Origin: a virus
Length of the DNA stretch: 39,778 nucleotides
IMG/VR virus record: IMGVR_UViG_3300035158_000699
Location: 1-39,778 of that record
Strand: one strand, 5' to 3'
Made by a program: the position numbers and the translations under genes. Positions 1,317 through 39,663 of this stretch are shown here, piece after piece (the stretch's first letter is position 1; each line of letters opens with the position of its first letter). The notes beneath the pieces were generated by a model. The model was not told the DNA's origin and ran no database searches. It was given only the letters and a program-made list of their open reading frames with translations.

Positions 1317-2599
1317 CCCTTTAACCACTGCCTTATTGCACTACAATTTCTACATAACATTGTGTAATTCTTTAATTCTTCCTTAATTCTTTCTAGGGAC
1401 ATATTTTTTACTTTGCTTAGTTGATATATTCCTTCATCAGCATAAAACTCGTATACTGGCATTGGATAGGATATTTTACAGTCCTGACAGACGCCGCCCC
1501 TTTCCTCCACTATTCTTTCAAGTTTTTCTTCCAGCTTCAACATCTTTACTTCATTCTGGCACTTCACACAATAACTAAAGGGCCTTCCACTACCTTTCCT
1601 TATATAGAATTCCAACTTGCTTTTGATCTTCTGGCATCTTACACAAAAAGCTTCATTTTCTTCTAGTTCTATAATATATGATCTTGTATTTTTGCTGTTG
1701 AGTGGACTACATTTGGTACAGAATTTGCGTCCAGTTAGATAACGTGTCCTTCCATTTTCTTCGATTTTATGCGGAATGGTTTCCCCGCAATTTTGACAGA
1801 CTATATCAGCCAAATATTTTTTTAGTTTTTGGTTGTTAAATGTACTGCCCTTTTTCATATTTGCCTCTTTTTTTAGCCACCGATGGTTTTCGGGAGCAAA
1901 AGCTTTTTCTATTTCTTTCGGATTTGTTAAATCAAATGCTGCCAGTGGAATAATGTGATCTATATTATAGTCGCTGTGATTTCCAGGACATGGCCCAAGA
2001 TGTTGTGCGATTGCTTGATAATCAATATTATATTTAGTCGATTTCCTGTTAATTTTTGTTTTTATTGCCCCATGCACTCTAGACCTAAGCAGTTCTCGTA
2101 TTCTGTAATTTTCGTCGTTATCATATCGATATTTTCTATAGCATTTTCGGCAGCGCCTGTGACCTTGTATTTTGGCATCAATGCCACAGATAACACATTT
2201 TTGTTTAGGTCTGTTTTTCATATAGCATTTCTGACATATTGGATGTCCATCATTATCGCGTTTATGAACCCTTGCAACTTTTTGACATATGGAACACTTT
2301 CTTTTTTTTGAATGTTTTTTACGATAACAACGAGCACACATTATGTAGGAATTTAAGTTCTTGGCGGCTGGCGCGAGGGCACCACAAACAGAGCAAATAT
2401 GTTTGGGCTGATGATTTTTACAATAACATTTTATACAAATCGCATCTTTATTGATTCTGAGTATCACCACATCATAGTTTCCACATTCAGAGCATTGTTC
2501 TATCTTCTTGTTTTGTTTTCTATAGCATTTTTGACATAACTTATTCTTTTTGTTAAAGAATTTTTTAATTCTAATCCCGCATACCGAACATTCTACCAT
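1313..2599 (-). CDS. HNH homing endonuclease with an array of zinc ribbons
   Basis: A 428-aa protein encoded against the direction of the tail genes. The N-terminus carries five tandem CxxC...CxxC modules (cysteines near 4/7-22/25, 36/39-55/58, 69/72-88/91, 102/105-122/125 and 135/138-150/153), mostly ending 'CxKCY'; these are probably DNA-binding zinc ribbons. The nuclease core follows: 'YNIDHIIPL' (Asp214-His215), 'FDLTNPKEIEKAF', then 'ENHRWL' and 'ANMKKGS', a typical phage HNH layout. Two further zinc pairs (268/271-294/297 and 319/322-344/347) lead to a C-terminal module, CQDC...CRNC at 371-419, that looks like a second HNH domain lacking its histidines. The start has a GGAG about 8 bases upstream (complement of 2608-2611). 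Insertion between the connector and sheath genes, convergent with the first, is typical of a selfish gene. Confidence 0.88.
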   Translation of the reverse strand: MVECSVCGIRIKKFFNKKNKLCQKCYRKQNKKIEQCSECGNYDVVILRINKDAICIKCYCKNHQPKHICSVCGALAPAAKNLNSYIMCARCYRKKHSKKRKCSICQKVARVHKRDNDGHPICQKCYMKNRPKQKCVICGIDAKIQGHRRCRKCYRKYRYDNDENYRIRELLRSRVHGAIKTKINRKSTKYNIDYQAIAQHLGPCPGNHSDYNIDHIIPLAAFDLTNPKEIEKAFAPENHRWLKKEANMKKGSTFNNQKLKKYLADIVCQNCGETIPHKIEENGRTRYLTGRKFCTKCSPLNSKNTRSYIIELEENEAFCVRCQKIKSKLEFYIRKGSGRPFSYCVKCQNEVKMLKLEEKLERIVEERGGVCQDCKISYPMPVYEFYADEGIYQLSKVKNMSLERIKEELKNYTMLCRNCSAIRQWLKG

Positions 2600-18107: not shown

Positions 18108-20186
18108 ATGGCATCACCATCAAATCCAGATCAGGGAAATTTCCCAAGCGAAGAACAACCAAAAACATATTCAGAATGGTTGGATCAATTAGAGTGTACA
18201 TGCCCAGCTGGAGCAAAGATACGTCCATCGTCTTTGCCAAGTGCTACAATTGATCTGGGCGACATAATTGCGGATCACACAAGAATCCTTAGCGCCTTTG
18301 CATCGGCATATAGTTTAATAGCTGTTATTTTAAAAATGATTGCGTGTATTACAGATGTGCTTTGTTGTCTTGTTAGCCCATTTTGTTTAACATCTGCACT
18401 AATCAGATTATTTGGTACCTGCCTTCCAGACTTTATTTTAATTTTTCCGCAGCTTGCAGTACCAGCAATTATCATCTGTATTATCAAAATTATATTGGCA
18501 ATAATAGAGTATATACTTACAGTGCTATTGCCGCTAATTCAAGAAATTATTCGAAATATTCAAGACCTTATAGACGCATTTGTAGATCAAAACCAGGATG
18601 CAATTGCTGCGCTAGCGTTTAAACTTGCAGCGCTTATGAAAGAACTCTTTAATGTTTTTGGTATTTTGGCAGTATTAAGTGCGATATGGATTATGATTAA
18701 AGCATTGCTTGCTGCTGGTATTGCCCTTCCTTGTGGCGGCGGCGGCGGTGCCTGTCCTGGGTGCGGCGATGAAGATGATATCTGCCCAACTGTTCTTCAA
18801 CAAACTAGTTTTAGTGGTACAGATGGACAGTTTGTAATAATATTTGGAGCAGACGGGTTCAGTTATCAGATATTATTCTACTCCGCCTCACGTCGGTCTA
18901 GTTTCCTGCAAATGAGAGATTTTTTCCCTAAGGGATTAGATTATACAGAAGTAAAAGACGAGGATGACGTTCCATATACATTAAACATCACACAAACTGA
19001 TGGATCTACACAGACGTATATGGTTACCTCCGTAGATTCTGGTGGGTATTCAAATCTATATCAGTTGCCGCCAGAATGGTTTTCGGACGGATATCTTGCA
19101 AGCACAACCCCAGCTGGCGTGCCTCTTGTAGATCCTCTTGAGGCAAGATTTAACACCAAAAAAGAAACATTCACATTTTCCATAGGTGGCACAGATAGAT
19201 ATATAACGATGACTGATACCAGGGGTGCGAGCCAGTCGTCAATTAATGGTGGATCTTGGAAAATTCAAAGCAAGTATGATGCTTATAATGTGTTATTAAA
19301 AAGAACAGCTGATACTTGGAGCTATGGCGCTCCCAACGAGCATCTCCGCTGGAAACTAGAACCATCAGCTCCTGGTGTTACAAGCGGATTAAACTTTGAG
19401 GTAGAAATAAATCATGAAGAGCTGATTAGACACGGACTGATTGGCGTTGGGTGCCATCCTGCGGTTCAAGCAACAAAAACAGCTTTAGCTAACCGGTTTC
19501 CAGATATGGCAAACCTAACACTACCAGATCTACCCGATCTAGATGGTTTGATCTCAGATGTGAATTCATGTATGGCCAAAGTGGCTCCAACAGATGTTGA
19601 TTCACAGTACATACTAGACAATTATCAAACCATAGCTACAGAAATAGTGACGCTAAACAGTTGTGTTACAAACGCACTTAACGATTTTAAAAGTGAAGCC
19701 GAAGATTACGCAAAGCAGATATATCCTATAATCTTTGATCCAGAGGTCTCGGCTGATGGATATGACGATGCGGATGGATATTATTTCGATGCTGACCCGA
19801 AAGTTCAGGTTGTGGGGTTAGAATCAGAAATACAATTAATACCTTTTGATAGAAATGGCGGAAAGCTTGGTATAACTGTGCCACCTGGCATCGTTGAGGT
19901 GGATTTTGATACCAATTTTGGTACACTTTCTTCTGTTGTTACAGAATTAGATGATGGGTATGACCCAACTGGAAGATTCATTTCTACCATAACCAGCTTG
20001 ACTCCTGGAATAGCTACCATAACAGCACAGGTTGGGGGAAGAGATGTTTCATATTTCGATGGATATGATTTAATTCCAAAAGAGGTACAGGTAGAATTTG
20101 TAACTGCTGAAGAAGCTAGACGTAGAGCAACTGCTGTTACTGGCGAGGTTTCTACAGAGCCTCTTGGACGTGGCAGGGCGGGGTAA
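18108..20186 (+). CDS. Virion protein with several membrane-type segments, Cys-rich linker and Ig-like tail
   Basis: A 692-aa protein not recognised as a family. Residues 61-99, 107-145 and 182-209 are strongly hydrophobic ('AYSLIAVILKMIACITDVLC', 'AIIICIIKIILAIIEYILTV', 'FGILAVLSAIWIMIKALL') and long enough for four or five membrane helices. A cysteine-rich linker 'CGGGGGACPGCGDEDDIC' follows at 209-226, with more cysteines at 30, 32, 80, 86, 87, 93, 105 and 124. The rest is beta-rich and soluble; the end (about 560-680) resembles a bacterial Ig-like or invasin-like domain ('SEIQLIPFDRNGGKLGITVP', 'TSLTPGIATITAQVGGR'). Standing between spike and wedge genes it is presumably in or near the baseplate, where membrane helices are unusual. 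Insertion into the host membrane during injection is possible but is inference. It contains five DGY motifs. Confidence 0.65.
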   Translation: MASPSNPDQGNFPSEEQPKTYSEWLDQLECTCPAGAKIRPSSLPSATIDLGDIIADHTRILSAFASAYSLIAVILKMIACITDVLCCLVSPFCLTSALIRLFGTCLPDFILIFPQLAVPAIIICIIKIILAIIEYILTVLLPLIQEIIRNIQDLIDAFVDQNQDAIAALAFKLAALMKELFNVFGILAVLSAIWIMIKALLAAGIALPCGGGGGACPGCGDEDDICPTVLQQTSFSGTDGQFVIIFGADGFSYQILFYSASRRSSFLQMRDFFPKGLDYTEVKDEDDVPYTLNITQTDGSTQTYMVTSVDSGGYSNLYQLPPEWFSDGYLASTTPAGVPLVDPLEARFNTKKETFTFSIGGTDRYITMTDTRGASQSSINGGSWKIQSKYDAYNVLLKRTADTWSYGAPNEHLRWKLEPSAPGVTSGLNFEVEINHEELIRHGLIGVGCHPAVQATKTALANRFPDMANLTLPDLPDLDGLISDVNSCMAKVAPTDVDSQYILDNYQTIATEIVTLNSCVTNALNDFKSEAEDYAKQIYPIIFDPEVSADGYDDADGYYFDADPKVQVVGLESEIQLIPFDRNGGKLGITVPPGIVEVDFDTNFGTLSSVVTELDDGYDPTGRFISTITSLTPGIATITAQVGGRDVSYFDGYDLIPKEVQVEFVTAEEARRRATAVTGEVSTEPLGRGRAG

Positions 20187-25532: not shown

Positions 25533-28500
25533 ATGGCAAATTTAAGGGTTGTCAGGCTTTCTATAAAAAATAGCACAACTGTCGAGATCCTATTTACTCA
25601 CAATCTCGATACCAATCTTGGTATGGAAAATGTTTCTATAGAGGGGGCAGCTGGTGGAGTTTCCGATCCAACAATAACTTCTGTTGTTCCATCTGAAAAA
25701 ACATTAACAGTGCTGGTGCGCCCGCTGGTACCACGTGCTAACTATAAACTCACACTTGCCTCAACTACTGCTCAGCCCTTCAAAGGTGCTAGGGGGGAGG
25801 AACTTGTTGAAGATGGAAGCAATAATGTCATCTTCTTTATTGGTCAGCAGGAAAGTAATATTGTAAGAGACAATATTCTTGCTGATATACCAGATCTTTA
25901 TACCACAGAGGCTGGAACATTAGTATTTGATACAGTAGATGCTGGATCAAAACAAATATTAAACTCTGCCAATGCGGCGGGAGAAGTACGAAGTGCTAAC
26001 TATGTTTCAATAGAAGAGCAAGATGTTGCTATGACCAGAGGGAGTGGGCCATTCGATAGGTTTCCTGATGAGGGAGTTTATCAGCTACTCAGAGTAGGCT
26101 CGACTGCAACTGGTGCACAAAAACAAGGTAGTATAACTTTTGCGGAGTTTCCAAATGATCAGGTTAGCCTTCAGCAAATTTTTGTAGAGGAAGAAACTGT
26201 TTCGAACACATCTAATGATAATAACAGTTTTATTGGTCTTACTATAAGCTTGGCGAACAAGCCAGTGATTATAGTTACGGCAGTGACATTATATAGAGAT
26301 GGCACTGCTTATCCGTATGATATTGTACAGTATAAGTATGGTGTAGCCAATAGTAATTATGATTCCAACAATGCCTATCCAGCAGTTGATTTGGAAGAAG
26401 ATCAAATTAGACTTAGCACTGCTGCTGTTGGTCCTAGTTTTCCATTGCCACAGGGCAGCGATACAATTGTAGTAAGTTATTTCTATAAAAGGTTGGGGCG
26501 CGATATAGACTCAGCATCAGTAGAAATTACAACGGCTGTTAATGTTGTTAGAGAAGCTGTGCCTTCTGTGGCTACCACGTTTTTCCTTTCTAATGCTCCT
26601 GTTATTGACTCTTCAGGCAACGTGGCAGTTTCAAATGGGGTGACTTGGTTGGATCCCGCGCAAAACTTCGACCCAGATGTAAAACATCCAGCTTTCATAA
26701 CTGAAGTCCCCTTTAGCAGTTCCAGTCTTCCAAATCAAGTTGGAGAGTTTTCGGTAGACTATGAAACTGGCCAGGTGTTTGTGTACGGTGTGAATGGTAC
26801 TGGGGTTGATGGCACGACTTCTGTTCCACCAGTAGCAGACTACACATATAAAAAAGAATACCAGGAAAATTTAGATTACATATTTTTTTCAGACACGGAC
26901 GAAATCGCTTCCATTCCTAACAGAGAGTTAAGAGGCAATCCAGCCACAATTTCTTTTAATTATGAGGATACTTTTGCCAATGGCACTGATTTCGAATTTG
27001 CATCACATGTGGAAGTTATCAATGAGCGTGTGGGGAATAATCTTATAGAGGACATTGGGCTTCGTACACAATATTCTCCAGTAAACGAAGTATTTCGTAT
27101 ATATAACGAAACAACTGGAGAAATCTACACTCCAACAAGAATAAGTGGAAATGAGGTATATTTCTCCGCATCTCAACCCCCTAGAACAGTTAACATATCT
27201 AGAGAGGCCGCCACATTTGAGTCAGCTATACAATCACAGCTCGTTGTTACAACCTCTTCTCCAGTTGGATCACTTGAAATATTTACAATAGAACTTTCCG
27301 ATAGTGATATTATGTCAGCTACAGGAGGATTTTATGGAGCTAACTTTAACACCTCGCTGACATTTTCAGAACAAAACCTATTTGTAAGGGAGTTCTATTA
27401 CAGTCCAGACAAAACGCTTTCTGAGAATTTACAGCGATTGGTTACGGTTGGTGATTATATAGTAGACTATGAATCTGGCATCGTCTACCTTGCTCATTCT
27501 CCAGGGCAAAGTACAGCCGTAGGAGATGCTACATATAGAAAAAACAACATTAAGACAAAAAATAGGCATATCATTAGGGTAGATGACATATACAGAAGTC
27601 CTTCAGTTACCCTGCCAAACACTGAAACCATAGAGGTCGGTACTATAAGTGATGAAACCGTAAACGTCCCAAATGTTAATCATGTTGGCGAGACCACAGT
27701 AAGTGGGGCGGCAATTACGGTTAATGGCGGCTCGATTACTGTTTCTTCAGATATCTACAAGTTGCGCCATATTTTCCAGGTCACCGACTTGCAAACCACT
27801 CACGATCCTATAAATTTTGCAACTGGTGCTTCTTTTTCTGCGACAAGCATTACATTAGACAGTACAGGTGTAGAAATAGATGACGACGCCGACGGTTTGG
27901 GAATTGTAGTACAAAGCGACGGTTCTAGAGAGTATGTTACAGCTGATCGTCTAGATAGCTTGGCCACGGCTGGGTTGGCTGAGTTAACGGTCGCACTTAG
28001 TGTAACACCACTTGGTGGATCTTTTAACTATCTGTCTCAGGGATCAGATGGATATGTGGATGCTACCAACAATAGAATATATCTCCCATCAGGCTCAAGT
28101 GTTGCTGGAACAAGGGTAGAGACCAAATATAAAGCTCAACTGCGCGGCGGCGCTGCGGTTTTGGTAGACTATGTTACTGGAGATGTTTTTGTAGATTATA
28201 CTTATTCTAAGGATGAGATTTTAGTAAGTTATGAGTATGGTGACAATGTTATTGATTGGAGTGTTTCAAGCGTATTACTGGAAAACGAAACATATTATGT
28301 TACATATCGCTATGGAGCGCTGCGAGATTCTTTGCGTGATAATTTTGGCGTGCTTACAAGTTTAGAAGAACTGTCTACAATTCCAGATGATTTGGATAGG
28401 GAAACCTACAGAAACGCAGTTTCTGGGTCCCTACAAACATTTTTAAAGGGTCCTACCATACCTGCCATCGAAACCTTGGTGGAAGCATTTACGCAGATTA

Positions 28501-31500
28501 CTCCTAACATTACAGAGTCAGCGTTTCAAGAGTGGATTTTAGGTAGAGACTATATACATCTTCTGCCAATGGAATTGTCCTCTTTAAGCGAAGATACTAC
28601 ACCGGGATACTCTCCAGGAAAGTTTGGAAATGGTCTGTTACTAGACACTACAGGTCAAACGGCTAAAGTACCTGCCACATCTAATATGAAATTTAGCGAA
28701 GGTACTTGGGAAGCTTTCATTATCCCTAGCTGGAAAGGAATAGAAAACGACGCGAGTTTAACTTTCGATCTTTCCCTTGATAATTCTACCATATCGACAG
28801 AAAAAGTACATATAGGTTCTGGAGCTATAAACCCATCAGAGGTTCCGTTTACACTGGATAAAACTGACCCGGCTGTTTTAGGCAGACCTTACAACCTACA
28901 CAGTCATGGATCAACTGGGTGCTACATTTGGTTTGACACAAACGCCAACCGATGGAGATTTCGTACTAGAGCGCCAGTTTCCGAAAACAGACTGTTTACT
29001 GGAATTATATCGACATCTGGCGAGTTTTATAATGTTAAGGTGGCCAGTACTGCTGATGGATACGACGGATACGACGGATACGAAATTGATGAAATTAATG
29101 ATAGGCTTTGGTCTACAGATGAGAGTATAAAATTTTCTTTTGTAGTAGATGCATATGATATGATGAACATGGCTTTTGATGCCTATGATGCTTATGATTC
29201 TTATGGAACTATTGCTGGCTTTGATGGTATAGATTTTACGTCTGACGATTTACATTTCCTGTTTGATACTGGTGTTGCTGAAAACAGATGTAGAATGTCT
29301 CTGTATAAGGACGGGTCTGGCTATCTCAAATATCGCATATATGATGGGAACCGTCGGATTAAAGTTCTAAGCCATGGAATTCATAATTGGCTTGCGGGGG
29401 AAACACATCATGTTGCAGTATCTTGGAAAATAGGTACCGTAGAACAAAGGGATGAAATGCATCTGTTTGTGGACGGAGAAGAAGTCCCGAATATGTATAG
29501 ATTTAAGGGGTATTTGGATGTGCCAGCCAGTGCTAACAAGAACACATACAGGTTTAAAAACCCTGTTAGTGTCCCCAGTGGATCAAAGTTTTTAAGTGAG
29601 GCTAGTGAGACATTGGTTCTTTCTGCCACAGCCCCAACGACTGGCGGCTTTGATTTGGAAACTACAACAGGCTCACGACGGGTAATATCACGAGGCGCAA
29701 ACTTCTCTGGTTCTGGCGTTGTTGTCGGCAGTAGATTTGAGATCTTAGATGATACGGATGACGGACGTAGCACTCGTGGATCACCATGGGTTTATGTTAG
29801 CAATGTAATCGGGCAAAATATTCTAGAACTAGAACAGGGGCCACCTGGATCTGGTGTTCCATGGACTGCCATAGCAACACTAAATAACGTTAGATATACT
29901 GTTAATCCGCTAGAATTGCAAACTGTAAGTGATCCTGAAATTGAAAGTATCCGAATGTTTACCAAGGATTCTTATGGGGAGTTAACCGAACTTAATTCTC
30001 CAAACACTCTAACTCCAGATTATAGTTTCTCGGAAGATGGATATATGGATTTCGTGAATGTATATAATGGGGTTTCAATAGGAGATGAAGTTCTTCTGAA
30101 AACATACGGTTTAACTATAGGGCGATGTTCACAGTACGTGTATATATGGCCTGATCGTCAAACAAATCTATTAAACACAATAATGCCCGCGCCTACAGCG
30201 ATTTCTAAGGTTAACGCTACTAATATAATTATAAGGCGGACGGTTATTGAGCCTGGGGTTTTTGCTTTAATAGCCACACTAGTTGGTGGACACCTGGTAA
30301 CGGTTTTAACATCTAGTTTAGATTTTTGTCAGCCATCAAATACAGTAACTGGTAGAAGCCTAACTGTTACCGTGTCTGGCGATAACATAGACTGGATGGG
30401 CTTGAACCAAGTGGTATTTATCGGTACCACATATGATGGTACAAACGTAGAAACCTTAAACTTTACGGGTCCTGGAAAAATGACCACAACAAAGTTTTTT
30501 ACTTCGCTTACAGATGTTAATGCGGCATTCACACCCATTAACTCCTCGTTGCCAGCTGGGGCTATAGAAATTCGGGAAACATATCCTCTAAACTGGCAGG
30601 AAAATGATGGACTTTATGCTGATATTCATTTGTCGGTACAAGAGCAGGCAGGAACAAATGGTGTAATAGTTGGCGGCACAAAGAAGCTTACAGATAGATA
30701 CTCTCGGTTTGGTGCCGAAGATATTGGGAAAGCAATTAATATTATATCTCCGCCACCCATTGCAGGAACCTACTCCATTACCAACGTGCCTTTGGATCCA
30801 TCAGGAACGGCTAAGGACTCTGACAGTGTGATTCTTAATGAATCTTTTAGCGATGGATACTCCAATATAACTTGGAGAATGATGAACACGTTTTATGGGG
30901 ATAGTGGTTTTGCTAATGGTCTGCTTACTCTAGAGACAGCCAGAACTGGCGGGCAGCCATTTTTACTTAGAAGTTGTTGGCACGAAGTAGATTTCCCAGC
31001 TTATCTTGTAATACCGTGGAATGAAGTACCTGCCGATCTTTTTACTGGCTCGGACATGTTTGGGGAAAATCAAGCTGATGCGGTTATTGATGAATTACGA
31101 ATACTGGATGAAATGTCTATAGAAACTAGAACTGGCGAGTCTCTTCCCAGCTCAGGCCGCAGCATTACAACAGATGCGGCTGCTGTACGTGAATTTGATC
31201 CTACGGATCAAACACTAGCACTATTTCACTTTAACGATAGTGTGGACAATGCCGCCAATTTCATTACCAGTTTTTCTGGAGACTATAAGCAGAGCGAGAA
31301 TAGCGTAAACTCCAGGTTTGGTCAGTCAGCTGTGTTTAATCTGCAACGAGCCTTGAAGGTTGATAATACAGCAGTTTTTAAAAATAATGAAGGAACAATT
31401 GAATTTTGGGTCAGTCCAATTTTGGACACTCATAATGACCCAACAATTAGATATTATATAGATTTATCTTCTGAGGTTGTGGCAGAGGCAACATCCACCA

Positions 31501-32447
31501 CATCACTGCAGATTCGTTTGCCTGCTAGAGCCAGGGCAGTAACATCCGTTACAGCATCTGGAAGCACAATTAACTATGCAACTGGTGGCACTCTTTCTTC
31601 TGATGGAATCACTTTTAGACTAGGACAATCTCTTCCAACGGAAGTTCTAACGGTTAGTGTTACATATGTACCAATTGCAACACAAGGTGATAGATTCAGT
31701 ATTTTTAAGAATGAAACAGGACAACTTGTACTTTCAGTTACAGCGTCTGGAGTAGACTATCAAATATCCGCTCCAATTTATTGGAAAAAGAACACTTGGC
31801 ACCGTGTATTTGCTGGATGGGACTTAAACAACTCCGACAATCAAGACCGTTTAATTTTTATGGTTGATGGAACGGAATCTGGGACTATTCGTTATGGCAC
31901 GGGCTTGGTTTATAATACGGGCGTAATATATGGACAAAAAACTGTATGGGGTTCAGCAGATGCAGGCACCACGGTTTCTAGAAATATTTTGGCTGATATT
32001 AACCTTATTGATACCTTCAATCGTATTAATGTCGGTGCTGATTTTACCGAGCAATATACAGCACTTGCTAGAATGGATAATATTAGGTTTTCTACCAGCT
32101 TAAGGCCGATTACATATCTCGGAGCTACAACAACTAACTCTATTGTTGGTCTTGGTCCAGGTCGGCTTATAGGTAAAGATCTATTATATACGAGCAATAC
32201 AAATGCAGCACAGCCTGTTGTTGATGATGCGTTAACCGGGCTTCTTTTAGACTTCAATACTACAGAGGACGAGGTAGAATATCTTGCACAAATTAGAGAC
32301 GCTGCCACTGGAATTTTTGATTTCTTTGTAGAAGTTATTGATACTTTTGAACTAGTTGATACTGATTTGGCTCATCAGTTAATCGAAGATTTGATAAATA
32401 AAATAAAGCCGTCACATACTAGAGCTTTTGTGAGCTTTACTAAGTAG
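25533..32447 (+). CDS. Giant baseplate/tail protein with LamG-like domains
   Basis: A 2304-aa protein, the largest in the window. Order of parts: an Ig-like domain of SbsA type (residues 1-110, 'KTLTVLVRPLVPRANYKLTL', ending 'FFIGQ'); beta-rich modules to about 930; a helical block near 935-1015 ('RDNFGVLTSLEELSTIPDDL', 'LQTFLKGPTIPAIETLVEAF') like wedge/tail proteins of the gpI neighbourhood; a concanavalin/LamG-like domain from about 1020 to 1335 ('FGNGLLLDTTGQTAKVP', 'HHVAVSWKIG', 'HLFVDGEEVP'); further beta modules; a second LamG-like domain at about 1890-2195 ('ALFHFNDSVDNAANF', 'GTIEFWVSPI', 'WHRVFAGWDL'); and a C-terminus 'LAHQLIEDLINKIKPSHTRA'. LamG-like domains often bind sugars, so host-surface contact is plausible. 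It follows gpJ-like directly, where P2 has gpI. It holds six DGY and several DAY/DSY motifs. Confidence 0.7.
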   Translation: MANLRVVRLSIKNSTTVEILFTHNLDTNLGMENVSIEGAAGGVSDPTITSVVPSEKTLTVLVRPLVPRANYKLTLASTTAQPFKGARGEELVEDGSNNVIFFIGQQESNIVRDNILADIPDLYTTEAGTLVFDTVDAGSKQILNSANAAGEVRSANYVSIEEQDVAMTRGSGPFDRFPDEGVYQLLRVGSTATGAQKQGSITFAEFPNDQVSLQQIFVEEETVSNTSNDNNSFIGLTISLANKPVIIVTAVTLYRDGTAYPYDIVQYKYGVANSNYDSNNAYPAVDLEEDQIRLSTAAVGPSFPLPQGSDTIVVSYFYKRLGRDIDSASVEITTAVNVVREAVPSVATTFFLSNAPVIDSSGNVAVSNGVTWLDPAQNFDPDVKHPAFITEVPFSSSSLPNQVGEFSVDYETGQVFVYGVNGTGVDGTTSVPPVADYTYKKEYQENLDYIFFSDTDEIASIPNRELRGNPATISFNYEDTFANGTDFEFASHVEVINERVGNNLIEDIGLRTQYSPVNEVFRIYNETTGEIYTPTRISGNEVYFSASQPPRTVNISREAATFESAIQSQLVVTTSSPVGSLEIFTIELSDSDIMSATGGFYGANFNTSLTFSEQNLFVREFYYSPDKTLSENLQRLVTVGDYIVDYESGIVYLAHSPGQSTAVGDATYRKNNIKTKNRHIIRVDDIYRSPSVTLPNTETIEVGTISDETVNVPNVNHVGETTVSGAAITVNGGSITVSSDIYKLRHIFQVTDLQTTHDPINFATGASFSATSITLDSTGVEIDDDADGLGIVVQSDGSREYVTADRLDSLATAGLAELTVALSVTPLGGSFNYLSQGSDGYVDATNNRIYLPSGSSVAGTRVETKYKAQLRGGAAVLVDYVTGDVFVDYTYSKDEILVSYEYGDNVIDWSVSSVLLENETYYVTYRYGALRDSLRDNFGVLTSLEELSTIPDDLDRETYRNAVSGSLQTFLKGPTIPAIETLVEAFTQITPNITESAFQEWILGRDYIHLLPMELSSLSEDTTPGYSPGKFGNGLLLDTTGQTAKVPATSNMKFSEGTWEAFIIPSWKGIENDASLTFDLSLDNSTISTEKVHIGSGAINPSEVPFTLDKTDPAVLGRPYNLHSHGSTGCYIWFDTNANRWRFRTRAPVSENRLFTGIISTSGEFYNVKVASTADGYDGYDGYEIDEINDRLWSTDESIKFSFVVDAYDMMNMAFDAYDAYDSYGTIAGFDGIDFTSDDLHFLFDTGVAENRCRMSLYKDGSGYLKYRIYDGNRRIKVLSHGIHNWLAGETHHVAVSWKIGTVEQRDEMHLFVDGEEVPNMYRFKGYLDVPASANKNTYRFKNPVSVPSGSKFLSEASETLVLSATAPTTGGFDLETTTGSRRVISRGANFSGSGVVVGSRFEILDDTDDGRSTRGSPWVYVSNVIGQNILELEQGPPGSGVPWTAIATLNNVRYTVNPLELQTVSDPEIESIRMFTKDSYGELTELNSPNTLTPDYSFSEDGYMDFVNVYNGVSIGDEVLLKTYGLTIGRCSQYVYIWPDRQTNLLNTIMPAPTAISKVNATNIIIRRTVIEPGVFALIATLVGGHLVTVLTSSLDFCQPSNTVTGRSLTVTVSGDNIDWMGLNQVVFIGTTYDGTNVETLNFTGPGKMTTTKFFTSLTDVNAAFTPINSSLPAGAIEIRETYPLNWQENDGLYADIHLSVQEQAGTNGVIVGGTKKLTDRYSRFGAEDIGKAINIISPPPIAGTYSITNVPLDPSGTAKDSDSVILNESFSDGYSNITWRMMNTFYGDSGFANGLLTLETARTGGQPFLLRSCWHEVDFPAYLVIPWNEVPADLFTGSDMFGENQADAVIDELRILDEMSIETRTGESLPSSGRSITTDAAAVREFDPTDQTLALFHFNDSVDNAANFITSFSGDYKQSENSVNSRFGQSAVFNLQRALKVDNTAVFKNNEGTIEFWVSPILDTHNDPTIRYYIDLSSEVVAEATSTTSLQIRLPARARAVTSVTASGSTINYATGGTLSSDGITFRLGQSLPTEVLTVSVTYVPIATQGDRFSIFKNETGQLVLSVTASGVDYQISAPIYWKKNTWHRVFAGWDLNNSDNQDRLIFMVDGTESGTIRYGTGLVYNTGVIYGQKTVWGSADAGTTVSRNILADINLIDTFNRINVGADFTEQYTALARMDNIRFSTSLRPITYLGATTTNSIVGLGPGRLIGKDLLYTSNTNAAQPVVDDALTGLLLDFNTTEDEVEYLAQIRDAATGIFDFFVEVIDTFELVDTDLAHQLIEDLINKIKPSHTRAFVSFTK
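29055..29084 (+). repeat. In-frame 9-bp tandem repeat encoding DGYDGYDGY
   Basis: GATGGATAC followed by two copies of GACGGATAC, then GAA, encode three DGY units in a row inside the first LamG-like domain. About 65 bases downstream, 29148-29207 encodes a looser series (DAYD, then FDAYDAYDSYG). The repeats keep the frame and look like a local expansion of a motif that is frequent in this virion. Confidence 0.85.
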
Positions 32448-32454
32448 GAAACAA

Positions 32455-32842
32455 ATGAATTTGGAAAAACAACAAATAGTAACCTTGTATAAACGTGGCA
32501 AATCGATTTCTGAACTACAAAAAAACATTCAGGCGGGGATTTAGGTTTATTACTGACACTTTAAGTGAATATAGGGAGAAGAGAAGAACACTACAGGAAG
32601 CAAACTCTATTAGTAAAATAAGACACGTTGGGCTGAACACAGAAATAACCAATGTGTTAATTGGAGAGTTGCTTGGAGATGCACATATTGTGCCTGGTAT
32701 TAACTCTGCGCTGAAACACAGAAAAAATCCTAACGGTACAGTTGTTCCTAGGATATATTTTTCAAAGAATGACATCAAGCGCTTTTTGGAATTTATTGGT
32801 GAATCACCAGTTAAATCTTTAGAGCACAGATGGAGGATATAA
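32455..32842 (+). pseudogene. LAGLIDADG-type homing endonuclease with a frameshift, probably truncated
   Basis: An ATG at 32455 (AGGAAA upstream) opens 29 codons, 'MNLEKQQIVTLYKRGKSISE...', stopping at 32542-32544. The reading continues in the +1 frame as 'FRRGFRFITDTLSEYREKRR', 'TNVLIGELLGDAHI' and 'PRIYFSKNDIKRFLEFIGES', to the TAA ending at 32842. Joined, this is a homing endonuclease N-terminal DNA-binding part plus one LAGLIDADG-like motif ('LIGELLGDAHI', His and Ala in place of the usual Gly/Asp pair) and an endonuclease C-terminus. The switch falls at seven A (32519-32525); six A would restore one frame. The nuclease domain is also short (about 70 residues), so an internal deletion is likely. 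It could be a sequencing error in a homopolymer, but the shortness suggests true decay. Confidence 0.72.
32832..32836 (+). promoter_or_regulatory. Shine-Dalgarno GGAGG of the next structural gene, inside the homing-gene end
   Basis: GGAGG ends 5 bases before ATG 32842 and is encoded within 'HRWRI', the last codons of the homing-endonuclease remnant, whose TAA overlaps that ATG by one base. This decides the start of the next gene in favour of 32842 over an in-frame ATG at 32830. Confidence 0.8.
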
Positions 32843-35691
32843 TGGTTACAAAAAGATTGCCCGTGGGTGTGTCCCGCGTAAATTGGTTTGACGGAATGCA
32901 AGTAGACCGTGATGATATGGTCGATGAACAATCCAGACACAAAGATATTGATGCAGCTAATGTCCATAACTTTTTTAGTAGTGGGATAATTGTAAATACC
33001 ACCACGCCCAATGTTATTTTGGACACTAATAATTTAAACTCGACGCAGCAGGCAATTTTAGATTCAGGGGCGTTTGATGGTCAAAACGTATACGATTATG
33101 ACGATGAAGTGAGCGACGTTATACAGGGTGTACAGCTGGCCGTCACCTTATCTAATGTAACTCTAGACGGGTCTGCACAAACAAAGGTCTCTATTATTGG
33201 AGATACCTTTGGTGATACACTAGAACATGATGATTTAGTTTTCAACCAAAATGGCACTCAAATAACGCGAGGGCGCTACAAAAAAATACGCTCAATTATT
33301 TTTAGCGATTTCGCGGGCAACTTACGTGGTAGTGCTACTAGAGCCATAGTTGATGGATATATGGTTGGAAGATGTATTGTCGCAGAGGCTGATTCACTAG
33401 AGGCATCTAGAGATACTATTCTTGCATCTCAAACCGCACAACCTAACAAATTTTTTGAGGATTTTACTCCTGCTAATTGGACCACTACAGTTACCCAAAT
33501 GCTTGACACAGCAGTTAGAGCCGATGATGATGCTAAATCTCTAGCAGATTTAGATATCGGTTTAGTCTCAGCACAGCAACGAGAGCTTGAAGAAAATGAT
33601 GTGACTACAAAGATTGGACAAAAGTTTCAAGCTAATGGAAATAATATTCAAAAGATATCAATCCTCCTATCTGCTGAATATGACTCTGTTGATGGTTATG
33701 ACTGGTCTGGCTCAATTACCATGTCGGTATATGAACTACAAACAGAGGTAAATTGTCCAGTTTCCCCAGTTCCAGATACCGCAGAAGATTTCGACCCAGA
33801 TCCTAGAATTGTTGGACAACTCGCACTCGACAAGAGCGATTTGGAAAAACAAGGGGTCGTTTTAGATGGTTACACACAAATAGTGGATTTTGTTTTTACA
33901 AACACAAATATTTCGGACCCCATACGTTCTCCTATTACTCCAGGAAACTACTACGCTTTTACAGTTCATAGGTCTGGCGACACCAGCAAGGGTACTCTTT
34001 TACTTGAAGAGTCGCCTCAAAGAGCTGAGACAGGATATATGGTTGTTTTTGATGGTTCTCAGTGGGTTAATGTAAAAGATAGTGATATGTGGTACGTGGT
34101 GTATGGTGATTATATAAAGGTTGCAGATGGAATTGCCTATGAAGATGGCGTTGGTATTGAGGTTCCAAAAATTGATGAAGATGAAACCAATACGGAAGCG
34201 CCCTATGTTTCTGGGCCACATGAGTTTAGCCTAGTTACCAGAGATGCATATAATTATATAATCATGGAACGTGAGTTGGAGTATTCTGAACCTACTCAAG
34301 ACCAAAGAACAGGAAATTTTATTTACTCGCGAGTAAAACCAACTCCAAACTTTTCTCTTATTAGTTTATCTAGGCTCAATACTTTGCTAGAAACAAACCC
34401 AGTTCCATTAATGCTGGGATGCACTAGGGATAGAAACCCAAGAGCAAATATTGAGATCGTAACTGGAACCACAGAAATTGTGGGTCTGGTTAGACGGAAT
34501 GAGTTTAATGTTTTATATCCTGATGCAGACTTGTTACAGCACAATTGGGTAGGCTCAATGCTTATCCCAAATGCTACCAGTTGTTGTGAAACCTATAGAA
34601 TAATTTCTGCTGAAGAATTTGACGATGCCTATGGAGATATTATAGGGGATGGGACTATTGGTAGCGACGACATTGTACAGCTTCAAGCAATAAGACAGAG
34701 CTATTTTAACTATACTGAGGCTGTTCTCGGGCCAGGCATGGGTACGAATATTATAGACCTTTCTACTGCAACAGCTCAGCAATTTGTAGTTGACGGGTAT
34801 GTAGATATTGAAGTTTTATTAAGGGCTGACGTAGATGCTAACGGAGTTATTAATAATGTTGATGAAGGTTTAATAGAAGACTATGTAAACAAAATTACGA
34901 ATAGCTTCCCTGCTGGTTCTACATTTCCTAGGTTACAGTTTACAGTTGAGAATCTCACAGATCCGCTAACCACCACGACAGACATCACTTCAATTTGCTC
35001 GGCTTTTGGAGTCGTTCCGTTTATTGATGTGGATTGGAAAATTGAATATTATCCAACTTGGACTCCAGATTTGGTGGTGGTACATGATGGTAGAAGAAAA
35101 TTAGTCACTACAATTTCCGACCCAGTGAGCGGGTGTGATGGCGGAAAAAATAACTATTTTATTCCAGGCGACCTGTTGCTTGGCGGTACCATATTGAACC
35201 CTGACGGAACAAACTTCTCTATAGATTTCGAAATGACTCACCTGTCATTACACATTCCAATTACGGATGCATATGGCAGTCCAGTCTTTATTGATGGATA
35301 TACTGGTATATTGCTTTTTGATACTTTTGTAGCAGAAGAAGCGGAAGGGAAAACCACATCTGGCTTTAGTGCTATGAAGTATTCAGATGGTACATATGTA
35401 CAGCCCACAGACTTTGATGATGGAAAAATTAAGATAGCGCCATCAATACAGTCTACTGCAAGTAGTTTTACAATACCATTTAGTGGGGCCTTAACTGATA
35501 TCGTAGGGTTAAACTACGACCCAGACACCTCACTAATGACTCTATATATGGCGGATGGCTATGAGGCTATAGCTGAGCCAGCAATTAGAACAAAGGTTTT
35601 GGTTGAGGTTTATTTGAAAAAGGCAGGATTCCAAAACGAAACACAAAATATAACAGATGATGAGATGCGAGCGCTTCTTGGAATTGTATAG
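32842..35691 (+). CDS. Tail/baseplate structural protein with dockerin-like calcium loops
   Basis: A 949-aa protein from ATG 32842, which has GGAGG 5 bases upstream; an ATG at 32830 lies before that site. The N-terminus 'PVGVSRVNWFDGMQVDRDDM' resembles N-terminal attachment segments of phage tail proteins that precede fibres. The middle is beta-rich. Near residues 594-618 'GDIIGDGTIGSDDIVQLQ' and near 662-685 'ADVDANGVINNVDEGLIEDY' match the two calcium loops of type I dockerin or EF-hand-like repeats (Asp at loop positions 1, 3, 5). The C-terminal 200 residues are again beta-rich ('DFEMTHLSLHIPITDAYG'). It has six DGY motifs. The gene precedes a fibre gene by 13 bases, so it may be the fibre's baseplate connector. 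The product name is inferred from context; the dockerin-like loops are visible. Confidence 0.65.
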   Translation: MVTKRLPVGVSRVNWFDGMQVDRDDMVDEQSRHKDIDAANVHNFFSSGIIVNTTTPNVILDTNNLNSTQQAILDSGAFDGQNVYDYDDEVSDVIQGVQLAVTLSNVTLDGSAQTKVSIIGDTFGDTLEHDDLVFNQNGTQITRGRYKKIRSIIFSDFAGNLRGSATRAIVDGYMVGRCIVAEADSLEASRDTILASQTAQPNKFFEDFTPANWTTTVTQMLDTAVRADDDAKSLADLDIGLVSAQQRELEENDVTTKIGQKFQANGNNIQKISILLSAEYDSVDGYDWSGSITMSVYELQTEVNCPVSPVPDTAEDFDPDPRIVGQLALDKSDLEKQGVVLDGYTQIVDFVFTNTNISDPIRSPITPGNYYAFTVHRSGDTSKGTLLLEESPQRAETGYMVVFDGSQWVNVKDSDMWYVVYGDYIKVADGIAYEDGVGIEVPKIDEDETNTEAPYVSGPHEFSLVTRDAYNYIIMERELEYSEPTQDQRTGNFIYSRVKPTPNFSLISLSRLNTLLETNPVPLMLGCTRDRNPRANIEIVTGTTEIVGLVRRNEFNVLYPDADLLQHNWVGSMLIPNATSCCETYRIISAEEFDDAYGDIIGDGTIGSDDIVQLQAIRQSYFNYTEAVLGPGMGTNIIDLSTATAQQFVVDGYVDIEVLLRADVDANGVINNVDEGLIEDYVNKITNSFPAGSTFPRLQFTVENLTDPLTTTTDITSICSAFGVVPFIDVDWKIEYYPTWTPDLVVVHDGRRKLVTTISDPVSGCDGGKNNYFIPGDLLLGGTILNPDGTNFSIDFEMTHLSLHIPITDAYGSPVFIDGYTGILLFDTFVAEEAEGKTTSGFSAMKYSDGTYVQPTDFDDGKIKIAPSIQSTASSFTIPFSGALTDIVGLNYDPDTSLMTLYMADGYEAIAEPAIRTKVLVEVYLKKAGFQNETQNITDDEMRALLGIV

Positions 35692-35704: not shown

Positions 35705-37423
35705 ATGGCCAGACTAACTCCAATTATCAGTATAAGCATTAATGGCGGTGTTCCAAACGTTAGTAATGACGATGTGCCATATGGTAGCACCGTGATATTA
35801 GAAAATACTGACAGGGTAAATGTGGACGGCTACTCATGGAAGCTAGTTTCAAAACCACCCGGGTCCAGTGCTTCTTTAAGCTTTGTTTCTTGGGAAAGAG
35901 AACAAGATGGAGGATCGCTTGGAGATATTAAAACCTCTTTTGTCGCTGATGCTTATGGTAGCTACATTATTGAGCTTACACTAAACAGATGGTTAAAAGG
36001 CACAATTGGTGTGTCTGTAAGAAGTCCACACCTTAGTATAAGATTACCAGCAAAAGAGGAGAGAGATGAGTTTGGTGGTTGGAGCAGTGCTGTTTATGGT
36101 GCTTTAATAAGTTTAGAGGATGGCTATGCTACAGTGGCTGCAGCGACAGGAACAGGGACAGTTAGTGGCGATTTAAGCGGTACGCTACCAAATCCAACCG
36201 TTTCTGGGCTACAAGGAAGAAATTTATCTGGAGCTGCACCATCGTCTGGCCAAGCATTGGCGTGGAACGGATCGGCTTGGGCACCAGCCGACGTTTTGGT
36301 ATCTGGTACTGCTGCTAGCGGGGATCTTTCTGGTACCTATCCCGGCCCAACAGTGTCTAAATTACAGGGACGAAGCCTTGACAGCTCGGCCCCCTCTCCT
36401 ACAGATGTTTTAGCTTGGGATGGAACAAAATGGACTCCAACGGCACCTGGTGCTCCTGGAGCACATGCTTCTTCCCATCAAAATGGTGGAGCAGACGAAA
36501 TTAATGTTGGGGGCCTAAATGGTGTTTTAGCTGATGCTCAAAATGCTGGGCAACTCCAATCTAGAACAGTCGCATCAACAGCACCTAGTTCTGGGCAAGT
36601 TTTATCATGGAATGGGTCTCAATGGGCGCCAGCAACTCCTTCTGGAGGCTCCCACTCTATGGGTGGATCCCAACACATTGCTGATACTCCCGCTAGTATT
36701 AACACTAAAGTCTCTGGGGCTGATATTATATTCACTACAACATCAGCTGGTGGGGACCTAAGTGGAACATATCCTAATCCAACCGTGGCCAAGTTGCAAG
36801 GTAGAAATGTAGCAGTAACAGCCCCTGGCATGTCTGAGGTTTTGACATGGAATGGATCTCAGTGGGCACCCGCAGCAGGTGGAGGCCCTCCTAGCGGATC
36901 AGCTGGAGGTGACCTTGGTGGAACATACCCCAATCCAGACGTAACAGGTATACGTGGTGCGCCAATTCACGGCGGAATTTCTCCTGGCGAAGCATGGGTT
37001 TTAGCATGGGATTCTGACGGATATCAGTGGGTTCCTCAGGCACAGTCTGGCAGCGGCGGAGGCGATGGTTATGATTTAATATTCTCTGACGACACAGAGT
37101 TTACAGAAACAGGAACAACCCCAGTTACAAAGAAAACCTTTAGATTTGTAATGGATTCTGTTAATAAGCCAACTCACTGGAGAATTATTGTTAGCTTGTG
37201 GGTTACCGGAGAACATGGTGACACTGCAGAATGCACTATTAATATGGGAGGTGATAGTGTGGTTTTGACCACCACCAACGGCTCAGAAACAGTTAAAAAG
37301 GGTGTTATAACAGTGGCTGCAGCAGCAGATACATTATTAACAGCAAATATTCAGTTACGAGTTACAACAGGTACTGACACAGCTCACCTCAAATATACAG
37401 ATATATATGCGGTAAAGGATTAG
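35705..37423 (+). CDS. Tail fibre protein built from GDLSGTYPNP-type repeats
   Basis: A 572-aa fibre. Residues 1-120 form a probable attachment/Ig-like domain ('GSTVILENTDRVNVDGYSW', 'AYGSYIIELTLNRWL'). From about 155 to 445 come repeated units of the type 'GDLSGTYPNPTVAKLQGR' followed by 'APSSGQVLSWNGSQWAPA': two complete copies in the first part, one half copy, and two more after a spacer 'HASSHQNGGADEINVGGLNG'. Such repeats are common in phage fibres and form the elongated trimeric shaft. The C-terminal 120 residues ('LIFSDDTEFTETGTTP', 'RIIVSLWVTGEHGDTAECTI') form a compact beta domain, probably the knob that contacts the host. A strong AGGAGG precedes the start. It has four DGY motifs. 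The next gene is a glycosyltransferase. Confidence 0.85.
   Translation: MARLTPIISISINGGVPNVSNDDVPYGSTVILENTDRVNVDGYSWKLVSKPPGSSASLSFVSWEREQDGGSLGDIKTSFVADAYGSYIIELTLNRWLKGTIGVSVRSPHLSIRLPAKEERDEFGGWSSAVYGALISLEDGYATVAAATGTGTVSGDLSGTLPNPTVSGLQGRNLSGAAPSSGQALAWNGSAWAPADVLVSGTAASGDLSGTYPGPTVSKLQGRSLDSSAPSPTDVLAWDGTKWTPTAPGAPGAHASSHQNGGADEINVGGLNGVLADAQNAGQLQSRTVASTAPSSGQVLSWNGSQWAPATPSGGSHSMGGSQHIADTPASINTKVSGADIIFTTTSAGGDLSGTYPNPTVAKLQGRNVAVTAPGMSEVLTWNGSQWAPAAGGGPPSGSAGGDLGGTYPNPDVTGIRGAPIHGGISPGEAWVLAWDSDGYQWVPQAQSGSGGGDGYDLIFSDDTEFTETGTTPVTKKTFRFVMDSVNKPTHWRIIVSLWVTGEHGDTAECTINMGGDSVVLTTTNGSETVKKGVITVAAAADTLLTANIQLRVTTGTDTAHLKYTDIYAVKD
36167..37040 (+). repeat. Coding repeats of the fibre shaft (about 120-bp units)
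   Basis: Units begin at about 36167, 36320, 36752 and 36907, with a half unit near 36546. Each encodes Gly-Asp-Leu-x-Gly-Thr-x-Pro, a 'LQGR' or similar segment, and a 'W.G..W.P' close. The DNA copies differ, so they are old repeats kept at protein level. They offer sites for recombination between fibres. Confidence 0.85.
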
Positions 37424-37425
37424 GC

Positions 37426-38298
37426 ATGATTGCTGCCTGTACGCTGTTTGATAGTCGATTTTCCATTGAAGGTTGGCTTTGTTGGAAATCAATAAACAAA
37501 TTTGATCCTTGTATGAAGTTTTATGTTCTTTGTTTGGATGAAAGAGTTTATCACGAAGCCTCTTATTGGCGTCAATACTGTGGTGATATTATTCCCATTC
37601 GTTTATATGAATTCGAGAATCGTTTTAGACAGCTTTTAGATAGTCGGGCCACACGTCCTTGGAACGCCTATACACAAACTTGTAAAGTGTTTTTGCCCAG
37701 TTATATATTTGAGAGGTTTGGGGAAAATAAAATTTTTTATATAGACTGTGATTTGTATTTTTGGAGTGCCCCCAAGCAAATAGAGGATGCTTTGGGAGAC
37801 AAATCTTTTATGGTTTCCTCAAGAGAGTTAGAACCTCCACCAAGACAGGGGAGATATAATGGTGGTTTTTATGCTTGTTGCAATGATGACAAATCTAGAG
37901 TGTTTTTAAACTGGTGGCAAAATAAAACAATTGAATGGTGTTTATGGGAACCTGGGCCAGACGGAAGATATGCTGAAGAGGGCTATCTAAACATTTTTTA
38001 CAATGAGCCTAAAAAATTCCAAGGGATTAAAATTTCATCCAACCCGGGAATTAACTTGGCAAATTGGAATTTAAACAAGCACCAGTTGAAGAGGGCTGAT
38101 GATAAAATTATAATTGATGACTATTATTACTTAGTTTGTTTTCATTATCAAGGTATGAGGTTTCATAAAGATCATTATGAAACTTATGCTGATATAAGAA
38201 ACAGCGCATCTAAATATATATATGAGAAATATTATAATGACTATATTGTATTTAAGGAGGAGTTTTTAAATGGCTTGGACAGCTACCGGTGGCGGTGA
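37426..38298 (+). CDS. Glycosyltransferase, GT-A fold (family 8-like)
   Basis: A 290-aa enzyme expected to transfer a sugar from a nucleotide-sugar donor. Features: N-terminal 'MIAACTLFDSRFSIEGWLCW' (nucleotide-binding start), 'TCKVFLPSYIFERF', the metal-binding DxD as 'FYIDCDLYFWSAP', then 'YNGGFYACCNDDKSRVF', 'NWW', an acidic 'YAEEGYLNIFY', and 'SSNPGINLANWNLNKH' near the end, with a late histidine motif 'CFHYQGMRFH'. This order is typical of GT-A, especially family 8-like, enzymes. The sugar and acceptor are not visible. It lies between two fibre genes, starts 2 bases after the first and overlaps the next by 29 bases, so it is made with the fibres. It could modify virion proteins or host surface sugars. 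No signal peptide is seen, so it acts in the host cytoplasm. Confidence 0.78.
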   Translation: MIAACTLFDSRFSIEGWLCWKSINKFDPCMKFYVLCLDERVYHEASYWRQYCGDIIPIRLYEFENRFRQLLDSRATRPWNAYTQTCKVFLPSYIFERFGENKIFYIDCDLYFWSAPKQIEDALGDKSFMVSSRELEPPPRQGRYNGGFYACCNDDKSRVFLNWWQNKTIEWCLWEPGPDGRYAEEGYLNIFYNEPKKFQGIKISSNPGINLANWNLNKHQLKRADDKIIIDDYYYLVCFHYQGMRFHKDHYETYADIRNSASKYIYEKYYNDYIVFKEEFLNGLDSYRWR

Positions 38299-39382
38299 CC
38301 ATGGTGGAGATGATTGGATTATCTCTAGTAATACACAGGTAGGTGGAACACATACAGGAGTCGGAGTTTTTAGGGTAAACTCTGGCACAACCATATGGCC
38401 ATCATCTGCGTTTAGTGTATCTTGCATAAAAGCAGAGATAGATGGGTCCATTAGCCAGTGGTATGCATGGGGACAATCAGTTTCAATCACTGCTATACAA
38501 ACCATAACAAACAACATTATAGACCAGGGTGGCGCTGGGGGAACTGGCGGAACAAACCAGGTTGGTGGGACAGGAACAACAGGATCTGCAGGATCTGCTG
38601 GAAGTAATGGTGCCGCTGCAGGAGCATGTAGTGCGGGAAATGATGGTGGAAATGGTGGAACAGGCAGTACAGGTGGAATGGGAAATAGTGGTCCAAATGG
38701 CGGTAACGGTAGTGGTGGATATAGTGGTGGAGCAATTTCTCTTACAGCAGTTAAACTAGAGTACGGAACTTTAAAAACTAACGGTGGTAATGGCGGTAGT
38801 GGTGGTTTTAGTCGCGGAGGCACTGGAGGCACTGGAGGCGTTGGAGGAAATGGTGGTCAGGGTGGTGCTGCTAATTGCAGTGGGTGTGACGAATGGCCGT
38901 TTCCATTACAAGGCGGCGATGGAGGTAATGGCGGCAACGGAGGTCAAGGTGGTAATGGTGGCTGGGGTGGCCAAGGTGGTAATGGTGGCTGGGGCGGCTG
39001 GGGTGCTAATATTACACTGCGTCATGCTAGACCAACAAGTACCTATAGAACTGGTAGTAGTGTCAATTATTTTGGCGGCAGTGCTGGTGGCGGAGGCGCT
39101 TCGCTTGCAGGAGCTGGCGGTGGGGGTGGAAATGGTGGATCACAAGGATTTGGAGGAGCTGGATGCGACGGAGGGGGATTTGGATCGCCTGGATCACCTG
39201 GATCTAGTGGTGGATCTGGATCTGCTGGTGGCGGAACATATTGGGGCAGCTCTGGTGGTAGCGGGATAAATGGAACCTTTTCTAGCGGAAATAGTGGAAC
39301 AGCGGATGTAGAACATCAGGCTAGGGTAATATATCAAGAAGGTGGGCAATATTTAAGACGTTTTAGGTCGAACCTAATATAA
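38270..39382 (+). CDS. Glycine-rich tail fibre tip / adhesin-like protein
   Basis: A 370-aa protein; AAGGAGG before the ATG lies within the end of the glycosyltransferase gene. The N-terminal 90 residues form a small domain ('GGDDWIISSNTQVGGTHTGV', 'WYAWGQSVSITAIQTITNNI'). Most of the remainder is Gly-Gly-X repeat: about 95-150, 163-195, 205-240 ('GGNGGQGGNGGWGGQGGNGG') and 265-345. This is the composition of polyglycine-II helix sandwiches known from adhesins such as the phage S16 gp38 fibre tip, where exposed loops bind the receptor. Between the Gly runs are short non-repetitive segments ('CSGCDEWPFPLQ', 'NITLRHARPTSTYRTG') that may be such loops. The end returns to 'VEHQARVIYQEGGQYLRRF'. 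A receptor-binding role is inferred from composition and place, not from homology. Confidence 0.7.
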   Translation: MAWTATGGGDHGGDDWIISSNTQVGGTHTGVGVFRVNSGTTIWPSSAFSVSCIKAEIDGSISQWYAWGQSVSITAIQTITNNIIDQGGAGGTGGTNQVGGTGTTGSAGSAGSNGAAAGACSAGNDGGNGGTGSTGGMGNSGPNGGNGSGGYSGGAISLTAVKLEYGTLKTNGGNGGSGGFSRGGTGGTGGVGGNGGQGGAANCSGCDEWPFPLQGGDGGNGGNGGQGGNGGWGGQGGNGGWGGWGANITLRHARPTSTYRTGSSVNYFGGSAGGGGASLAGAGGGGGNGGSQGFGGAGCDGGGFGSPGSPGSSGGSGSAGGGTYWGSSGGSGINGTFSSGNSGTADVEHQARVIYQEGGQYLRRFRSNLI

Positions 39383-39441: not shown

Positions 39442-39663
39442 ATGGCAATAAAAGATTGGATTACAAACTATCCTACTAGTTTAGATACTGATGCTCCAGG
39501 TAACATGGAGGATCTTGTAGATGGAGCAGATCTTTCTCGTGTTAGCCAAATACACTCTATTAGAGACGCACTTATCGCTATAGAAACAGAAATTGGCACG
39601 ACCGTTCCAGCTGTTGGAAGCCTAAGAAAGCGGGTGGCCGACCTAGAGGGTAGCCAGCAGTAG
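39442..39663 (+). CDS. Small fibre-associated protein, coiled-coil type
   Basis: A 73-aa protein with strong CGGAGGG before its ATG. The sequence 'SLDTDAPGNMEDLVDGADLS' followed by 'VSQIHSIRDALIAIETEIGT' and 'GSLRKRVADLEG' is a pattern often found at the start of phage fibre or neck-appendage proteins, in which a short leader leads into a trimeric coiled coil. Here the protein ends right after the coiled-coil segment, so it is either a tiny stand-alone protein or the N-terminal remnant of a longer fibre gene. The next gene begins about 40 bases later in unrelated sequence, which would fit truncation by insertion. Confidence 0.65.
   Translation: MAIKDWITNYPTSLDTDAPGNMEDLVDGADLSRVSQIHSIRDALIAIETEIGTTVPAVGSLRKRVADLEGSQQ

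Follow-up and report, generated by a model that had tools for sequence, protein, structure and literature searches.

The window analysed here is the whole 39,778-nt stretch of the viral record IMGVR_UViG_3300035158_000699, and towards its 3′ end an enzyme gene sits among genes for tail fibre proteins. The features on which the argument draws are listed below, with DGY standing for the tripeptide Asp-Gly-Tyr and GT for glycosyltransferase.

2815..5358, plus strand: tail sheath protein with 2 DGY, used as the query for finding relatives
18108..20186, plus strand: structural protein with 5 DGY, by DGY count
25533..32447, plus strand: tail/baseplate protein of 2304 aa with 6 DGY, by DGY count
32830..35691, plus strand: DGY-rich baseplate/fibre protein with 6 DGY, whose homologues in relatives lie upstream of a GT4 of HSW type (from sequence and alignment)
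35705..37423, plus strand: tail fibre protein with GDLSGTYPNPTV repeats and 4 DGY, matching phrog_9729 (tail fiber) and ending 2 nt before the enzyme gene
37414..37419, plus strand: Shine-Dalgarno-like AAAGGA of the enzyme gene, read from the sequence, inside the 3′ end of the fibre gene that precedes it
37426..38298, plus strand: predicted GT-A glycosyltransferase (P0001) with a GT8/GT77-like fold, related to PF03407 (from the reading frame, fold, relatives' profiles and tree)
37744..37752, plus strand: Asp107-Cys-Asp109, a DxD metal/nucleotide motif with both Asp conserved in every aligned full-length paralogue
38143..38154, plus strand: HYQG (residues 240-243), a partial match to HxxGxxKPW with the KPW absent
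38270..39382, plus strand: glycine-rich protein with GGNGG repeats, likely a distal fibre protein or adhesin
39442..39663, plus strand: start of a further fibre/virion gene resembling L002:9989-12001, by N-terminal similarity judged by eye

The enzyme frame encodes 290 aa with no internal stops and is packed tightly between its neighbours, with a 2-nt gap after the fibre gene and a 29-nt overlap with the glycine-rich gene, spacings that the sequence-only reading had given exactly. AAAGGA lies 6 nt 5′ of the enzyme start, and a strong Shine-Dalgarno sequence, AAGGAGGAG (38254-38262), is placed within the enzyme gene, 7 nt 5′ of the start of the glycine-rich gene. With its GGNGG repeats, that protein resembles polyglycine adhesins such as T4-type gp38. 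The same order of fibre, enzyme and glycine-rich protein recurs at locus L002 of the 302-kb contig G001, again with a 29-nt overlap, and at L003 as far as the contig end. The window's arrangement is kept in G001 and G002, in G005 a GT also comes after a fibre gene, and altogether four of six related contigs have an arrangement for co-expression with fibre genes. The proposed coupling to fibre genes is thereby upheld, and in relatives a sugar island lies further downstream. As a separate observation, the protein at 32830-35691 carries, at about residues 599-690, a dockerin-like calcium-loop pair (DAYGDIIGDGTIGSDD ... ADVDANGVINNVDEG) that is conserved in relatives.

Fold, family and likely sugar donor

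Structurally, the AlphaFold2 model of the enzyme (pLDDT 76.6, pTM 0.81) predicts a GT-A fold, as had been read from the letters, with Foldseek matches in the PDB to glycogenin (8.6e-9), to the Skp1 galactosyltransferase AgtA (structure 6mw5, GT77; 2.8e-8, match 4) and to LgtC (7e-8), and further GT-A matches to LARGE1, GlyE and 3tzt. The catalytic region of the model is of low confidence, with residues 135-145, 179-183 and 204-207 below pLDDT 50. The earlier assignment to family 8 stands for the predicted fold, for which glycogenin and LgtC (CAZy GT8) give the best scores and share the DxD motif, albeit not exclusively, as GT77 and other structures match too. It does not stand for sequence models: neither P0001 nor L002 matched the GT8 profile (Pfam PF01501), and the best relative reached 19.8 bits against a cut-off of 24.3. 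Identity to the fold matches is 10-17%. Of the two GT8 motifs, DxD and the C-terminal HxxGxxKPW, the enzyme has DCD for the first and HYQG, with no KPW, for the second. Two relatives exceed the curated cut-off of Nucleotid_trans (PF03407, GT77 type), with 28.5 and 22.3 against 22 bits; P0001 itself had no match there, nor in searches of the Pfam, PHROGs and NCBIfam profiles and of PDB sequences, and annotated phage records gave no match to it, to its relative in the island or to the DGY-rich fibre protein. Lipid, glycan and protein acceptors are all represented among enzymes that score alike, so that the fold does not reveal the acceptor.

Evolutionarily, the enzyme has close kin within the phages themselves. 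Three of the related contigs, all from jumbo phages and 302-340 kb long (G001, G003 and G005), carry further copies of it in an island on the 3′ side of the fibre genes, together with a large GT4, a GT2, GT77-like and GT47-like enzymes, a methyltransferase, a DegT aminotransferase, RmlB and RmlA; FdtA is present in the islands of G001 and G005, and no FdtA match was found in G003. The phage copies of the window's clade form one group in the tree (support 100/100), within which the embedded copies (100/99) and the island copies (97/93) separate. Since this split falls inside a single phage group, the tree indicates that the embedded enzyme is a duplicate of the island enzyme that arose within the phage lineage; the long-branch joins of L071 and L083 leave the position of other phage copies unsure, and these were not used. 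The window contig stops short of the expected glycosylation island, so that its presence in this virus is deduced from the relatives.

A genome scan with three close sequences returned no bacterial relatives, and a broader alignment found 197. At 80 bacterial loci, FdtA was the adjacent gene in 42, and a DegT aminotransferase was second in 36 or lay immediately before the relative in 11; the bacterial clade with FdtA next door is mostly not the one closest to the phage copies. FdtA makes dTDP-3-keto-6-deoxygalactose, en route to the dTDP-Fuc3NAc of S-layer glycans (PMC2943079). The phage islands hold the same enzyme set as this FdtA/FdtB pathway; they differ from it in their phage setting and in that no FdtC acetyltransferase was identified in them. 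Because FdtA and DegT stand beside the bacterial relatives, the most likely donor of the enzyme is a dTDP-3-amino-3,6-dideoxyhexose or a close relative, the kind of activated sugar that RmlA, RmlB, the FdtA-like protein and DegT of the island could jointly make.

Two sulfotransferase-like genes, with P-loop motifs judged by eye, were also seen in the G001 island (L011:9960-10727, minus strand, and L011:1218-1919, plus strand). They prompted the idea of tyrosine sulfation, which was set aside: the searched stretches of G003 and G005 held no match to a G001 sulfotransferase-like gene, nor could one be recognised in the set of 67 genes common to four genomes. Genes resembling HNH- or LAGLIDADG-type homing endonucleases lie amid structural and island genes (window 1313-2599, minus strand; L002, L005 and L012), and window 32495-32842 gives a weak LAGLIDADG match.

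The DGY motif and the GT4 found with it

The abundance of DGY noted in the first reading of the sequence is borne out by counts: the window's proteins contain 25, where 2.5 would be expected (Poisson P about 5e-17). An origin at the nucleotide level, as an inserted DNA word, was ruled out: many synonymous codons write the motif, which therefore is a signal at the protein level. In structural regions taken from the window and seven relatives, eight contigs altogether, DGY occurs 233 times against 22 expected, or 10.6-fold, and the enrichment is chemically specific, with NGY at 1.0-fold, EGY at 1.1-fold, DGF at 1.2-fold and DGW at 1.8-fold; the island stretches contain no DGY. Among the other D-x-Y tripeptides only Asp-Ala-Tyr (DAY) departs from about 1-fold, at 4.7-fold in the window's clade (window 25533-32447 and homologues) and only 1.4-fold in the wider superclade, where DGY alone is enriched, as if motif specificity differed between lineages. 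When 59 homologues of the DGY-rich protein (953 aa) are aligned, the motif falls in 53 columns, none of them universal, and most homologues have several DGY against about 0.25 expected, with one having none. Among 18,792 site pairs, the fraction in which Phe, Trp or His replaces the Tyr after Asp-Gly rounds to 0.000 (<0.05%). On these alignments DGY behaves like a sequon, in that sites turn over, their number is kept, and Tyr is not replaced by Phe.

Another view, which we regard as possible though doubtful, is that DGY is a structural turn preference without any modification and that the enzyme has nothing to do with it. Asp-Gly is a common turn and the DGY sites coincide with length-variable loops, in keeping with this view; a turn, however, would tolerate Asn and Phe, and the flat counts of NGY and DGF, together with the near-absence of aromatic replacement in the site pairs, argue that the motif is sequon-like beyond a simple turn preference.

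Should DGY prove to be a modification sequon, its most plausible writer in the available genomes is a GT4 enzyme encoded near a DGY-rich fibre protein. In the DGY-rich contig L217 such a GT4, a homologue of the large GT4 seen in the islands, follows shortly after the DGY-rich gene. It is predicted (model pLDDT 90.2) to be a GT-B enzyme of the GT4 kind, and the SdgB structure 7ec1 is among its fold matches. A profile of its N-terminal domain, which bears a His-Ser-Trp (HSW) motif, gave matches of about 1e-50 or better in 14 of the 18 DGY-rich contigs, among them every one of the nine that measure at least 190 kb; the four without a match (G009, G013, G014 and G021) are 28-140 kb long and probably incomplete. 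Eight DGY-poor controls gave either no match or weak generic GT4 matches of at most 64 bits. When viral contigs were searched by the GT4 alone, and thus with no selection for DGY, the 71 loci found, which include some near-copies of one another, held 806 DGY against 79 expected, with DGF at 1.3-fold and NGY at 1.2-fold. A homologue of the DGY-rich protein was encoded within the same stretch at 68 of these loci, and the family of the window enzyme occurred at only 3. The GT4 is often followed by a GT2. The GT4 is also among the 67 genes common to the four genomes.

It is conceivable, then, if doubtful, that the HSW-type GT4 starts a glycan on DGY tyrosines across the superclade and that the window enzyme extends this glycan in its own clade. 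Apart from the co-occurrence, this proposal has a precedent in the SdgA/SdgB system of Staphylococcus, in which a GT-B enzyme modifies the serine of DSD, a short motif with Asp that occurs in an adhesin, and SdgB accepts the minimal DSD tripeptide (PMC8561734). That system serves as a model for the GT4 and DGY; in common with the GT4 it has the fold only, and with the window enzyme not even the fold. Against the proposal, the GT4 gene adjoins only one of the DGY-rich genes, four DGY-rich contigs, though probably incomplete, give no match, and the superclade shares ancestry: because DGY-rich phages share tail genes, the co-occurrence may be mere common descent, and a single origin of both traits would leave the same pattern. 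Separately, the GT4 of G006 (L201:17298-20000, a 903-aa open frame) carries an intein-like insertion directly after CEGFC, in the catalytic domain.

Probable virion decoration and its alternatives

Phage-encoded GT genes are linked to structural genes at this locus and in its relatives, as expected of a virion-glycosylation system, and the window enzyme probably helps to decorate the virus particle. On balance, we favour the reading that it is an accessory GT of a jumbo-myovirus virion-glycosylation set, derived from the island, which would place an amino-deoxy sugar on a fibre protein or adhesin and would not be the general writer of DGY. Under such a scheme, the island enzyme would have been duplicated in the phage lineage, giving a copy inside the fibre operon whose expression probably falls late, when fibre and adhesin are also made; a dTDP-activated sugar supplied by the island would then most likely be transferred to the neighbouring fibre or adhesin, or to a sugar already attached there.

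The enzyme and the island could instead remodel the host cell surface, by receptor masking or a change of O-antigen, with the fibre genes as mere neighbours. The bacterial relatives do lie amid polysaccharide-type genes, and there are known cases of phage-encoded GTs altering the serotype of the host, as quoted in PMC12619734. We nevertheless consider this rather unlikely, since the gene lies inside a fibre operon, with a tight overlap in several relatives and a predicted timing that fits virion assembly, since the GT4 is found near one fibre protein at 68 of the 71 superclade loci, and since the island ORFs listed include no recognisable flippase or polymerase.

Least probable of all, and by our estimate very improbable, is that the window enzyme itself glycosylates DGY tyrosines in virion proteins in the manner of glycogenin, the idea put forward in the sequence-only reading: glycogenin is its top fold match, DGY is sequon-like and the gene lies within the fibre operon, yet DGY does not follow the enzyme across genomes. 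That reading had suggested a survey of co-occurrence, with DGY-rich relatives devoid of the enzyme as the outcome that would speak against it, and such relatives are readily found. G003 and the fragment G006 are without the embedded orthologue at an equal DGY load (G003 retains an island paralogue, 38% identical), and none of 16 further DGY-rich phage contigs, located by a scan for the DGYDGY-coding pattern and including contigs of 428, 406, 361 and 252 kb, gave a member of the enzyme family with a query that does find the family in G001, G003 and G005. Conversely, DGY shows no excess at another 45 phage loci, which encode distant relatives of the enzyme, with 41 observed and 40.5 expected. 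As far as these comparisons of sequences go, with contigs that may be incomplete, the window enzyme is not a general writer of DGY. The idea of tyrosine modification is still worth keeping, with the fibre-linked GT4, not the window enzyme, as the candidate, and with shared ancestry as the main caveat.

A close parallel to the accessory-decoration reading comes from the mycobacteriophages Che8, Corndog and Myrna, whose phage-encoded GTs decorate capsid and tail proteins (Freeman et al. 2023, as cited in PMC12363180 and PMC12619734). As there, the GTs here are phage-encoded, and the tail sheath of Myrna, a cluster C phage, weakly matches that of the window. The present phages are uncultured jumbo myoviruses and differ from the mycobacteriophages in their sugar-nucleotide island and their embedded GT-A enzyme; the DGY motif is not described in the citing articles.

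Documented cases of phage virion glycosylation are so far limited to a few isolated phages, and the articles consulted describe no sequence rule for where the sugars are placed. In this superclade of uncultured jumbo phages, fibre-linked GTs occur with a chemically precise tripeptide in proteins of the tail, baseplate and sheath, which is D-G-Y and hardly ever D-G-F, a pairing that predicts both the modified residue and the enzyme from sequence alone. We raise, as a speculative and rather unlikely extension, the model that these phages glycosylate virion tyrosines at Asp-Gly-Tyr, and in the window's clade also at Asp-Ala-Tyr, by means of a cytosolic, fibre-linked GT4, with accessory enzymes extending the glycan with phage-made amino-deoxy sugars; if true, a viral protein-glycosylation code would be readable from sequence.

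The motif can also be locally expanded to an extreme degree, as in one structural protein of the 428-kb contig G020 (L248:2790-6536), which contains the tandem run DGYTDGYSDGYDGYSDGYRDGY.
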